Of a stretch of 38,473 bases of DNA, positions 1,082 through 30,385 are shown in pieces. Source of the DNA: Gammaproteobacteria bacterium (GTDB taxonomy: Bacteria; Pseudomonadota; Gammaproteobacteria; Acidiferrobacterales; Sulfurifustaceae); contig JAOTWF010000018.1 of the NCBI GenBank assembly GCA_029863005.1, positions 1-38,473 on the forward strand. Direction: 5' to 3'. The stretch's first letter is position 1, and each line of letters opens with the position of its first letter. The notes below the pieces were generated by a model. The model was not told the DNA's origin. It did no database searches and saw nothing but the letters and a program-made list of their open reading frames with translations. The position numbers and the translations under genes are program-made.

Positions 1082-2083
1082 ATGGAGCTGGCTAGCAAGA
1101 TTTACGTCGCGGGGCATAAGGGGCTTGTGGGTTCCGCGATCGAGCGCCAACTGCGCGCAGGGGGCTATACCAATATCATCCAGCGCTCGCATAACGAACT
1201 AGATTTGGTCGATCAACACGCGGTCGAGAGATTCTTTGAAGTCGAAAAACCGCAATATGTTTTCCTGGCGGCGGCCAAGGTCGGTGGCATTCATGCCAAT
1301 AATACCTATCCGGCTGAATTTATCCGTGACAACCTTGCCATCCAGACCAGCGTGATTCATGAATCATGGCGATCAGGCGTGAAAAGGTTGTTGTTCCTCG
1401 GCTCATCCTGCATCTACCCGCGCGACTGTCCACAACCGATTAAAGAAGAATACCTCCTTACCGGCCCGCTGGAACCGACAAACCGCGCTTACGCCATCGC
1501 TAAAATTGCGGGCATTGAAATGTGCTGGAGTTATAACCGGCAATATGGCACGCAATATCTCGCGATCATGCCCACCAACCTATATGGGTTGTGCGATAAC
1601 TATGACCTCAACGATAGCCATGTCATTCCTGCACTTATCCGGAAGTTTCATGAAGCCAAGCAACAAGGCAGCAAAGACGTGGTTGTCTGGGGTACTGGCA
1701 CCCCGAAACGGGAATTCCTCTACAGCGACGACATGGCCGATGCCTGCGTGTTTTTGATGAACCTGCCGGACGACCAATTCCTGTCCCTGCTTGGTAGCGA
1801 CGAAACCCAGTCGGGAAAATTCAAGCCACCGCTCGTCAATGTCGGCGCAGGAGAGGATGTCACTATCAAGCAGCTAGCTGAGTCAGTCAAGAAGGTTATC
1901 GGTTTTGAAGGAAAGATTACTTATGATGTATCGAAGCCGGATGGCACGCCCCGAAAACTGCTTGATGTAAGCAATCTCGCTCACCTCGGATGGCGTGCCA
2001 AAATGCCTTTGCTCGAAGGTATCCGGCGGGCTTACGAAAATTATCAGAGCACTCTCGAGTTGCCAGTTTGGGACAAGCCATAA
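1082..2083 (+). CDS. fcl: GDP-L-fucose synthase
   Basis: Bifunctional 3,5-epimerase/4-reductase that turns GDP-4-keto-6-deoxy-D-mannose (the Gmd product) into GDP-L-fucose. The 333-residue protein has the usual length. Seen: N-terminal Rossmann loop [12 protein letters not shown], the substrate segment [11 protein letters not shown], the SSCIYP catalytic serine segment, and YAIAK with the YxxxK pair. It starts at ATG directly after gmd, giving a gmd-fcl operon. The end is overlapped by the favoured start of the next gene. Together with gmd it indicates L-fucose, or a derivative, in the polysaccharide. Confidence 0.96.
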
Positions 2084-2844
2084 AGCGCATCATAAAGACT
2101 ATCCTTCACAAGTTTGGCATCATTGTGATGAAGCAGTCATCCCGCATGTACCTGCCGGAGGATGATTCGTACCGGATCGCGGTTGAGCAGTACGGCCAAC
2201 TCGATCCGGTTATCATTGATGGCGGCGCTCACAGAGGGGGTTCGGTGGAGGCTTTTTCCCACTTCGTTCCCCATGCCGAATTCCATTGTTTTGAGCCAGA
2301 CCCGCTACTCGCCGACGAACTTACTGGAATATTCAAGAAGAAGACCAATGTCCACGTAGTGAGAGTGGCGCTCGGGGAATCGAAGGGGAAGGCCATGTTC
2401 AACATCAATGCCTCGCGAGCGACCAGCTCGCTGCTCCCGTCAATAGATACGCTGCAGCCAGATCTGCAGACTCTTTGCCAACTTGTGGAACAAGTCGAAG
2501 TCGATGTCGCTACGATCGACGACTATTGCGCGGCGCAAAATCTGAACCGGGTTGATATCATCAAGCTCGATCTCCAAGGCTCCGACTACAAGGCCTTGCG
2601 AGGCGCGAAATCGACATTGCGGCGCGCGCGCGTCGTGCTGATCGAAGTGTCGTTCGTTCAAATCTATAAGAATAGTGAACTCTTTCCGGCCGTTCTTCGA
2701 CTGATGGAGGAATGTGAGTTTACCCTATTTACATTGTGCGGACTCCACTATGGAGAAAATGATGAACTACTCTGGGCCAACGCCATCTTTGTGAACAGCG
2801 GCTCACACAAGAATGATCTACTGCCTGCCCAGTCGAAGCATTAA
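2068..2844 (+). CDS. FkbM-family methyltransferase
   Basis: Probable SAM-dependent O-methyltransferase acting on a sugar of the polysaccharide; the substrate is unknown. Motif I is [15 protein letters not shown] followed by the acidic FEPDP; the later FkbM segment [18 protein letters not shown] is also present. The start is uncertain. The frame is open back into fcl (a possible start at 1990), but a TTG at 2068 gives a family-like basic N-terminus ([17 protein letters not shown]) with a 16-base overlap on fcl, and an ATG at 2128 is a shorter alternative. I prefer 2068, about 258 residues. It is one of five methyltransferase-like genes in this cluster. Confidence 0.82.
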
Positions 2845-2847
2845 GCG

Positions 2848-4335
2848 ATGAAGGCAACAATATTTCGGAACGCAAGTTGGAGCGGTGCCGCCGCAGCGTT
2901 TCGGGCCATTTCTGGCCTGATCACTGCGTTGCTCGCGATTCGTCTTCTGGGAGTGGGGGACTACGGACACATTGTAACCATACTTTCATTGTTTGTGCTC
3001 TACCTGTCGTTGAACTCGAGTGTTTTTACGGTGTTGGTTACAAAACTGATGGCGCCGCGAACCACCGATGCTGGCGAGGACAGTTCTGTCATGCTTGCGG
3101 CAGCAACGATATTTAGTGCGATATCGGTTGCGTTGCTGGTAATCGTGACCTTGTTACTGAGTGAATACGCGCCGCGACTTATATCGATAGAACCCAGCAA
3201 TGTTCTGGACGCAGAAATCCGCCGGGTCATTTTCCTGATGGGGGCGCTCACGGCTATCCAGATTGTGGTCGCGTTACATTCTGCGCTCATAGAGAGCGCC
3301 GGCAGGCTGGACCTCGCCATGAAATGGCAATTGATTGGCCCCACTGTTGTGCTGATCGTGCTTTCCTTCTCGTTCTTTGCACAGCTGCCGATCACCGCCG
3401 TGGGCTATGTGGGGGCGCTTTGTGTCGGCGCATTGACTGATCTGTTTCTACTTTGGTTCGTCAGACGTAAAGTGATGCCATCTTCGCTTCTATTCTGGCC
3501 ATCGCGCAATCGGCTGATCGGCGTGGCGCATCTGCTCACGTTGGGCGGTGTGCTGCAAGCGTCCTCGCTCATGAGCATGTTTCTTGAACCGCTCAACAAG
3601 CTGTTATTGAACTATATTGTTGGGCCCGCCGCCGTCACTATTTACGATTTGGCGATGAAAGTCATCTGGGGTATCCAGTACCTGTTCAGTTCCGCGATGC
3701 GCGTATTTCTTCACCTGGGGAGCCGGGACAAGGAGGCCGTGGGTCAGACATTCTCCCGAGTGATAGCTTTGATCGGGGTACCCGTAGTGATCCTCCACAC
3801 CATCGGGGCGCTTTTCCTTTTCTGGGCAGCCCAGCATTGGATGGCAATCGATGCGGCTCAACTCATGGTTTTTTTCGCGATTGCCACGGTGTCAAATTTA
3901 GGAATAATCTATATCACGCCGCTTTATATTAGCCTGATTGGCCGCGGGGATCTTCGCTTTATATTCAGATGCCAGACGATTCTGGCAATTACCAATATCG
4001 TCGTTTCTTTCACGCTCATACCTGTCATCGGGCTGATCGGTGCTGCCTTCGGGCTACTATCGGCAACCATTTATAACGTGGTGGCAATCTATGTTCGGTG
4101 TAAAGACAACTCAGGCACGATTGACGGACTTAGCGATACGCTGCGTGGACAGGGAGTACGTTATTCACTGACGATTGCACTATTCGCTGCGGCAATATTA
4201 TTGGGTATAAAAGGCGGCGATAGCTTTATCGGTTCTTTTGCGGTGTTGCTTGGTCTCGCTGCGATTATGGTACGGGAGCCTATGGCTAATCTTGTTCTTG
4301 AACGAATAGGAATTGGGAAACGACTTTTCTTCTAG
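2848..4335 (+). CDS. wzx: Polysaccharide flippase (Wzx-like, MATE/MOP superfamily)
   Basis: Integral inner-membrane protein expected to flip undecaprenyl-diphosphate-linked repeat units to the periplasmic face. It has 495 residues and is almost entirely hydrophobic segments separated by short basic loops, consistent with about 12 membrane helices. The N-terminus (NASWSGAAAAFRAISGLITALLAIRLLGVGDYG) follows the polysaccharide-biosynthesis flippase pattern of an early helix ending in LG..DYG. The start lies 3 bases after the upstream methyltransferase. It sits between sugar-nucleotide genes and glycosyltransferases, as Wzx genes do. Substrate specificity cannot be read from sequence. Confidence 0.87.
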   Translation: MKATIFRNASWSGAAAAFRAISGLITALLAIRLLGVGDYGHIVTILSLFVLYLSLNSSVFTVLVTKLMAPRTTDAGEDSSVMLAAATIFSAISVALLVIVTLLLSEYAPRLISIEPSNVLDAEIRRVIFLMGALTAIQIVVALHSALIESAGRLDLAMKWQLIGPTVVLIVLSFSFFAQLPITAVGYVGALCVGALTDLFLLWFVRRKVMPSSLLFWPSRNRLIGVAHLLTLGGVLQASSLMSMFLEPLNKLLLNYIVGPAAVTIYDLAMKVIWGIQYLFSSAMRVFLHLGSRDKEAVGQTFSRVIALIGVPVVILHTIGALFLFWAAQHWMAIDAAQLMVFFAIATVSNLGIIYITPLYISLIGRGDLRFIFRCQTILAITNIVVSFTLIPVIGLIGAAFGLLSATIYNVVAIYVRCKDNSGTIDGLSDTLRGQGVRYSLTIALFAAAILLGIKGGDSFIGSFAVLLGLAAIMVREPMANLVLERIGIGKRLFF

Positions 4336-6378: not shown

Positions 6379-7791
6379 GTGCGACCAAATCTCTTCAGTC
6401 CCGCGCTGCCCGCCGCAGTGCTCTTGTTTGGTATGGTGTTTGGCCTAGCATTCGCCAGTTTTTTAGGATTACGCTGGCAACCGTTCGCAACAATTACGCT
6501 TTATAGCGCACTTTTCATTTGGGTTGCGTTGCTCGCCTGGCGACAGCGTAAGTTATGGGGCAGGTTTAGTGTAATCGACGTACTATTTGGAGCTTTTATC
6601 TTTTTGGTCTTGGCATCTTTGCTTATCCATGGCGTCACCTGGTCTGGGCCTTGGAAGTATGGGCGTTACCTGCCATTTATGGTAGTTGTGCCATACGTAT
6701 GCGGGCGTCTTATACGGGCGAAAGACATCCAAGTGTTTTTTAGTGTCGTCGCTTCGGCTGCTCTCGTGATGTTGATACTAGTTGCGATCGACTATTGGCA
6801 AAACGCTACGTTATACAACACATATGGACGTTGGCCTTTTTTTGGTCATTTTTACTCACCGCTGTTAATAGGCGCTCTTTTGGCAGGTTCGCTTATCGTG
6901 TTTTCTTTTCGTTTCCTAATCGGTGGTGCCGACATGTCCCAAACTTTGTTGCGACAAGCAGTTGGCCTTATTGTTTTAGGATTTGTCACTGTGGCATTGG
7001 TATGGGTTGCGGCGCGCGGAGCTTTGTTGTCAGGATTATTAGGCATAATTTGTATGGCCCTAATCGTGCGCAATATGTCGATATCGAGAAGGTATGCACT
7101 TCTTCTTTATCTTGCAGTGATTATAGGTCTGGCTACCTTTTTACTTCCCAAGCCGCAAGCACAGCTGTACGTGAACCTGCTGACTATGCCGGACAGTATC
7201 TATGTGAGTGTATCGGAACCAGCCGCACGAGGATCGGAACCAGCCTCATGGATATCGGAACTAGCCTCATGGATATCGGAACTGGCAGCACGAGGATCGG
7301 AACCGCTCGCACAGCAATCGGAACCCATACTGGGGAAAGCCAGCTGCGGACCACTTGAACAAGGTATTAATTCAGTGGCCATCAGGTGGGTACTTTATCA
7401 AGAGGCCGTTGCGATGTTTATGAATAGCCCGTGGTGGGGTGTTGGTGCGGCGTCTTTCGGGCAGCATTCCTGTTCCGGTGAGATGGGGTACCCGCACAGT
7501 TCGATACTACAAGCCTTTTCTGAACTCGGAGTTTTTGGGGGACTTTTGTTCGTTGGCTTAATGTTAACTACTTTCGTAAGAATTTTTCAAAAGGCAGTAA
7601 ATATTAATTCGACACACTTTACTCAAATTGCACAACAGGCCTTGGCTTGGTTCATGATGTATTTGGCGGCATGCCAGATTTCAGGCAATTATTTCACAGA
7701 TGTCGGCACATATCTTTTGGCGGGATTGGCAGCAGGCATGCAATCGAATTCTGCCTGGGATGAGGGAGTTGAGAGAAGCAATGTCGCGTGA
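6379..7791 (+). CDS. wzy: O-antigen polymerase/ligase family membrane protein (Wzy-like) with internal heptapeptide repeat
   Basis: Probable Wzy polymerase that joins repeat units in the periplasm. The 470 residues are mostly hydrophobic, with about ten or more membrane segments. The C-terminal half has the O-antigen ligase/polymerase pattern: a large loop with WWGVGAASFG, then YPHSSILQAFSELGVFGG leading into further helices. WaaL ligase shares the fold, but the position inside the cluster favours Wzy. The GTG start at 6379 is the best available. Unusually, residues 279-316, in the predicted periplasmic loop, consist of five and a half in-frame seven-residue repeats (SEPAARG / SEPASWI / SELASWI type). 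The end overlaps the next glycosyltransferase. Confidence 0.8.
   Translation: MRPNLFSPALPAAVLLFGMVFGLAFASFLGLRWQPFATITLYSALFIWVALLAWRQRKLWGRFSVIDVLFGAFIFLVLASLLIHGVTWSGPWKYGRYLPFMVVVPYVCGRLIRAKDIQVFFSVVASAALVMLILVAIDYWQNATLYNTYGRWPFFGHFYSPLLIGALLAGSLIVFSFRFLIGGADMSQTLLRQAVGLIVLGFVTVALVWVAARGALLSGLLGIICMALIVRNMSISRRYALLLYLAVIIGLATFLLPKPQAQLYVNLLTMPDSIYVSVSEPAARGSEPASWISELASWISELAARGSEPLAQQSEPILGKASCGPLEQGINSVAIRWVLYQEAVAMFMNSPWWGVGAASFGQHSCSGEMGYPHSSILQAFSELGVFGGLLFVGLMLTTFVRIFQKAVNINSTHFTQIAQQALAWFMMYLAACQISGNYFTDVGTYLLAGLAAGMQSNSAWDEGVERSNVA
7213..7326 (+). repeat. 21-bp in-frame tandem repeat inside the polymerase gene
   Basis: Five full 21-bp units (starting at 7213, 7234, 7255, 7276 and 7297) and a partial sixth (7318-7326). 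Each begins TCGGAA and encodes SE(P/L) followed by variable residues. Units two and three are near-identical (SEPASWI, SELASWI); units one and four both end AARG. Because the unit is a multiple of three, gain or loss of units would keep the reading frame. Confidence 0.95.
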
Positions 7792-29912: not shown

Positions 29913-30385
29913 TGCGTATTGGTCACGGTTACGACGTGCATCCACTGGTCGTCGGGCGCGACCTGATTCTCGGTGGCGTTCAAATCCCGCATAGTAAAGG
30001 ATTGCAGGGCCATTCCGACGCCGATGTTTTAATCCACGCGATTTGCGACGCCTGTCTCGGCGCCGCCGGTCTCGGCGACATCGGTCAGCATTTCCCCGAC
30101 TCCGACCCACAATATAAAAACATCGATAGCCGTAAACTGCTGCGCAATGTGAAAGGAGCAATTTCCGAGCGCGGATTAGAGGTAGTCAATATTGACAGTA
30201 CGCTCGTGGCCCAGGCCCCGCGCCTAACCCCGCATCTGCCGCAGATGATTCAGAACATTGCTGCGGATCTCGGCATCGCGCCGGAGCGCGTGAACATCAA
30301 GGCCACCACCACGGAAAAATTAGGTTTTGCCGGACGGGAAGAGGGTATCGCTGCGCATGCCGTGGCGTTGCTGGAGCCCAGCTAG
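29912..30385 (+). CDS. ispF: 2-C-methyl-D-erythritol 2,4-cyclodiphosphate synthase
   Basis: Fifth step of the MEP isoprenoid pathway. The 157 residues show the zinc ligands D8 and H10 ([11 protein letters not shown]) and H42 (LIHAI), the [12 protein letters not shown] signature, [18 protein letters not shown] and the C-terminal [26 protein letters not shown] set the start at the ATG at 29912, which overlaps the ispD stop and so suggests coupled translation; the frame runs further upstream inside ispD but without family support. Confidence 0.96.

Follow-up and report, generated by a model that had tools for sequence, protein, structure and literature searches.

An in-frame 21-bp tandem array in the predicted periplasmic loop of a gammaproteobacterial Wzy-type polymerase

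A 21-bp tandem array was found inside a polymerase gene in the window, by which we mean the whole stretch of DNA analyzed (38,473 nucleotides). On balance we consider it probable that the array is an in-frame minisatellite which lengthens a length-tolerant catalytic periplasmic loop of a gammaproteobacterial Wzy-type polymerase. What the array may do beyond spacing we infer from the sequence.

The gene and its array

The 470-aa product of the gene matched the Pfam family PF04932 (Wzy_C) over residues 200-392 with an E of 1.9e-14 and 54.1 bits (cut-off 31.7), in support of the Wzy/WaaL-type identity proposed for it in the first-pass annotation. No NCBIfam model matched the protein and a sequence search of the PDB returned nothing at E up to 1. 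As judged by its sequence, the protein is probably a membrane enzyme that strings sugar units into surface chains. The gene lies in a polysaccharide gene cluster. Neighboring genes matched sugar-nucleotide enzymes, glycosyltransferases, methyltransferases, an aminotransferase and PF00953, which we take to be the family of WecA, and farther along the window are mfd, FtsK, LolA and an MgsA-type ATPase. A 495-aa protein encoded at 2848-4335 is flippase-like by eye alone; it matched nothing in Pfam (E up to 1) and no NCBIfam model. Two further PF04932 proteins, of 412 and 679 aa, are encoded elsewhere in the genome, and one of these may be the ligase.

The coordinates of the gene, the array and the surrounding features are presented in Table 1. 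The run of units from SEPAARG to the final SEP, first annotated at residues 279-316 (7213-7326), was recovered at exactly these positions. Tandem Repeats Finder reported the array at 7212-7325 with a period of 21, 5.4 copies, 78% matches and a score of 91, the highest of its nine rows in the window. When the whole window was shuffled 60 times with dinucleotides preserved, the top score had a mean of 41 and a maximum of 62. The array is 114 bp in length, its G+C is 0.59 compared with 0.47 in the remainder of the gene, and the reading frame stays open throughout. It has the layout expected of an in-frame VNTR, with more than three units standing head to tail within a coding frame and a unit length that is a multiple of three. 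As had been argued from the start, adding or removing entire 21-bp units would leave the frame intact. An on/off phase-variable contingency locus was rejected on the grounds that the unit preserves the frame and that the array is without a promoter-like site. Two side observations concern the same DNA: a different frame contains an open stretch of 187 aa (6795-7358), which crosses the array and is probably due to chance, and a weaker second tandem repeat of the window lies at 30045-30086 (15-bp unit, 2.3-2.8 copies, score 56).

Table 1. Positions in the window of the polymerase gene, the units of the array and the features of the predicted loop.
Feature	Position	Strand	Remarks
Wzy-type (PF04932 Wzy_C) polymerase gene	6379-7791	+	470 aa, GTG start; translation and Pfam
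Codon of conserved R213	7015-7017	+	R in 272 of the 290 Wzy_C proteins aligned to the profile
Predicted large periplasmic loop, codons 256-375	7144-7503	+	Model, hydropathy, fold match
21-bp tandem array, in frame, five complete units plus part of a sixth (residues 279-316)	7212-7326	+	
Unit 1, SEPAARG	7213-7233	+	
Unit 2, SEPASWI	7234-7254	+	
Predicted helix with amphipathic pattern, codons 288-304	7240-7290	+	Model; hydrophobic moment
Unit 3, SELASWI	7255-7275	+	1 of 21 bases differs from unit 2
Unit 4, SELAARG	7276-7296	+	
Unit 5, SEPLAQQ	7297-7317	+	
Partial unit 6, SEP	7318-7326	+	Has only the word in common with the other units
Codon of conserved R336	7384-7386	+	R in 287 of 290
Codon of conserved H373	7495-7497	+	H in 270 of 290

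The units are alike in one part and diverged in the rest. The 8-bp word ATCGGAAC, which starts at the A before each TCG, was identical in six of six copies, and the 13-base spacer between words had no column common to the six copies and two common to the first five. With six units all eight conserved columns were adjacent (chance P 9.5e-5), and with five units a run of eight was observed among ten conserved columns (chance P 0.0038). Exact matches inside the array extended over 21 bp at an offset of 21 (from 7242) and over 17 bp at an offset of 63 (from 7225), with one spacer end common to units 1 and 4 and another to units 2 and 3; the exact matches point to stepwise duplication and exchange. 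When units 1-5 were compared, 32 of the 38 differing codon pairs were nonsynonymous (15.2 of 21 sites are nonsynonymous), and the spacers therefore carry no sign of protein-level constraint.

The combination of a conserved word, a diverged spacer and 21 exact bases in an adjacent pair accords with an array that grew through slippage or unequal recombination. The array has probably grown from a single ancestral copy of the sequence around ATCGGAAC; at each step one unit, or seven residues, would have been added when replication slipped, or recombination was unequal, between identical words. Frequent turnover of the whole array is disfavored, since most of the units have already diverged, the exception being units 2 and 3. 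An origin from neighboring sequence was also considered, as part of unit 5 matched 7153-7165 at 11 of 13 bases, but this was equalled by 9 of 200 shuffles (13 bases) and 37 of 200 (21 bases) and was not counted as evidence.

The predicted periplasmic loop and its length in the Wzy_C family

Hydropathy and the structure model put residues 256-375 between two membrane spans, each with basic residues at its far end (RNMSISRR, VRIFQK). The AlphaFold2 model of the 470-aa protein had a mean pLDDT of 68.2 and a pTM of 0.70, the array part being of low-to-moderate confidence (ten-residue pLDDT means of 49-72). The best PDB match of the model was the WaaL ligase 7TPG (Foldseek E 4.2e-6, TM 0.50/0.56), followed by FtsW and RodA chains, and structural alignment with 7TPG gave a Z of 17.6 and an rmsd of 4.7 over 352 residues at 14% identity. 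R213, R336 and H373 were among the nearly invariant columns when the protein was aligned with 36 homologues of 13-19% identity (37 sequences). The array lies between R213 and R336, just upstream of R336 and the WWGVG segment, and H373 is farther downstream. The WaaL-like fold and the positive-inside charge provide good support for a predicted periplasmic location of the array and of the conserved Arg, Arg and His. The first-pass annotation had placed the array in a large periplasmic loop before WWGVG, a proposal with which the model, the fold match, the charge and the positions of the conserved residues all agree; residues 279-316 are predicted to be periplasmic and not cytoplasmic. Two cysteines of the predicted loop, C323 and C365, flank R336, and a disulphide between them is possible.

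The span from R213 to R336 is 123 residues. Among the 36 homologues of the alignment it ranges over 56-103 residues with a median of 67, and in 270 other proteins, among which the array protein ranked third of 271, the median is 70. The array supplies 38 of the approximately 55 extra residues. Because the stretch before R336 varies in length across the family, the growth of the loop by the array is probably tolerated. The units also add negative charge (net -4 over the array), and the amphipathic helix predicted for the mid-array may sit on the periplasmic membrane face near the active site.

The family survey drew on PF04932 genes from 57 order, 75 class and 80 phylum genomes (for class and phylum, among the matches listed) and on homologue searches, part of the rows so obtained being taken in. 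It comprised 305 reading frames including the array gene, which gave 298 unique frames after the N-rich L234 was dropped; 290 of these matched the A1 profile and eight were left out of the region counts. The sample was non-random, as L208, L209 and 20 more genes were chosen for a long span; two poor ORF picks, L155 and L166, were retained, and one clipped locus with a negative span length was ignored in a span list. Among the 290, a span of at least 110 residues between the two arginines (R1-R2) was found in 13 other proteins, ten of them selected for their span (L208 and nine others), and L208 alone of the 13 was among the proteins with an array in which a unit of 9 bp or longer occurs three times or more. 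Arrays are thus an uncommon route to a long loop.

A Tandem Repeats Finder score of at least 80 was obtained for three of the 290, namely the array protein, L208 (86) and L138 (81), and the R1-R2 stretch, which accounts for 15% of the residues, held a strong array in two of the 290. Weaker arrays in this stretch were found in L083 (score 61, 2.3 copies), L204 (53), L136 (52) and L059 (35, 3.1 copies); weak chance-level arrays occurred in other parts of the genes as well as in the R1-R2 stretch of other proteins. With selected sampling, these counts are a hint and not proof that the R1-R2 stretch tolerates arrays. The repeat of L138, a Wzy_C-type gene of Cupriavidus cauae (1532-3406), is an Ala/Gly-rich 12-bp repeat of 7.8 copies with 72% matches at residues about 52-83, N-terminal to the conserved part.

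L208 is encoded at 1303-2643 on the minus strand in a genome of another gammaproteobacterial family (G129) and was found to carry a 9-bp in-frame unit in 4.8 copies, 100% identical, encoding ASNASNASNASNAS, that is (ASN)n, at residues 303-316 just before R321. The two proteins are alike in that the array stands in frame just upstream of the equivalent arginine and in their R1-R2 spans (120 and 123), and differ in the unit itself and in the H373 column, where the profile alignment gives L208 an N. Since its repeat sequence is unrelated to the 21-bp array, the array of L208 is an independent event, although it was found partly because the gene had been chosen for its long span. With its perfect copies it is a better candidate for live copy-number variation than the 21-bp array. 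A search for relatives of L208 gave one weak match among 55 other genomes related to G129 and none among plasmids.

Relatives of the array gene were sought in draws which overlap and which each include its own genome; besides itself, it had matches in 7 of 60 (relatives), 2 of 20 (family), 7 of 57 (order) and 5 of 369 (class) genomes, which took in 69-116 residues of the conserved region with identities of 26-38%. One scan of the GTDB species collection gave no relative and another gave five weak core relatives (29-37%), one of which was the genome of L019. No close homologue was found across these draws and the GTDB species collection. When viral contigs were scanned with the conserved core, 0 of 12 stretches were confirmed, and a plasmid scan gave no match.

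Alternative readings of the array

The idea first attached to this array was that of an adaptive length tuner, in which strains would differ in unit number and loop length would in turn change polymer length or linkage or, in a wider form of the idea, phage sensitivity. A frame-keeping unit, the near identity of units 2 and 3, a position beside conserved loop residues and the independent perfect 9-bp array in the corresponding stretch of L208 are all consistent with such a role, as is the precedent of TolA of Escherichia coli, where, according to PMC3477136, the number of repeats affects both tolerance to stress and infection by phage. However, no variation was observed, as the genomes searched contained no close homologue for comparison, most of the units are diverged, and most long loops in the survey are without arrays, so that we regard a length tuner as a possible but unlikely account.

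It is also unlikely that the units form a structured insert of fixed copy number, kept for their shape as an amphipathic helix which would rest against the membrane or bind another protein, for example the chain-length regulator Wzz. The model does contain a helix within the array (Table 1), and hydrophobic residues in units 2-4, two Trp among them, follow a 3-4 pattern; the hydrophobic moment of residues 286-306 was equalled by 170 of 20000 shuffles, with other parts of the protein scoring higher. Against this, the mostly nonsynonymous differences among units 1-5 leave no sign of protein conservation beyond Ser-Glu, and the confidence of the model is low to moderate here.

A broader proposal, that the stretch just upstream of the conserved Wzy loop arginine is a recurrent in-frame array site at which lineages change loop length stepwise, tuning polymer length, linkage or phage sensitivity while the enzyme is kept, we consider decidedly doubtful. 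Control of chain length and linkage by Wzy is poorly understood and fast-changing sequences mask which parts of the protein matter. Natural arrays which add seven (or three) residues beside conserved loop residues would offer a ready-made series on loop length versus polymerization. Should populations vary in copy number, surface sugars could be diversified reversibly with the enzyme kept in frame.

An error of the draft assembly, affecting the array or its unit number, is very improbable. The genome is a draft of 134 contigs and assemblers can collapse or expand tandem repeats, but the units differ mutually, the array is 114 bp long and the frame stays open across it.

The array was found once in the genome. 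DNA comparison with its own genome (2.45-Mb draft) returned the array itself and five chance-level matches (14-19 bases, E 1.0-3.5), and the two-word pattern had four matches there, all within the array. Four phage records (E 6) and, among plasmids, approximately 30-base matches in repB (best 20 of 74 records, E 2-5) were taken as chance, and viral contigs gave no match. A mobile or genome-wide repeat was rejected on these results. The word ATCGGAAC was found 69 times in the 2.45 Mb, six of these being in the array, compared with 22 times for a reversed control and approximately 75 expected when an 8-mer is counted on both strands and all bases are equally frequent; it is no genome-wide signal. 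An RNA element was rejected as well, as the array folded no better than shuffles (z 1.27; 180 of 200 folded at least as well) and an Rfam scan of the window gave no match; promoter- or terminator-like sites were sought in the array and none was found. Hardly any weight can thus be given to a DNA or RNA element in which the periodic ATCGGAAC, two helical turns apart, would be a protein-binding or regulatory site lying by chance inside the gene: the word is kept in every copy without synonymous change and is commoner than its reversed control, but its count is close to expectation, its own genome has no second such array, and the searches of phages, plasmids, viral contigs, RNA folds and signal sites gave nothing convincing.

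Comparison with known systems

In the open PubMed Central literature, which was the scope of the search, no title or abstract opening among those listed dealt with a tandem repeat inside the coding sequence of a Wzy or WaaL protein. Open papers joining 'wzy', 'tandem repeat' and 'O-antigen polymerase' yielded passages on typing methods, other genes and engineered tags, and the word 'tandem' is absent from the main text of a 2025 review of Wzy (PMC12004945). The statement in the first-pass annotation that no described repeat of this type was known in Wzy proteins agrees with the open papers so covered. L208 weakens the notion that Wzy proteins are free of such repeats. We know of no repeat in the loop of WaaL 7TPG.

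The array protein resembles WaaL (7TPG), its best fold match, whose long periplasmic loop contains, according to passages of PMC10920833, two Args and one His. It is also like Wzy of Pseudomonas aeruginosa and Shigella flexneri, for which the text of PMC12004945 describes large periplasmic loops with functional arginines. Those proteins differ in having a pair of large loops; their loops carry RX10G or RX15G motifs. The nearest known concept is the in-frame repeat of TolA from E. coli, as portrayed in PMC3477136. Both are in-frame tandem repeats in an envelope protein in which copy number can change without loss of frame. They differ in that strain variation and phenotype have been demonstrated by experiment for TolA, which is no polysaccharide enzyme, whereas the present array is known from its sequence.
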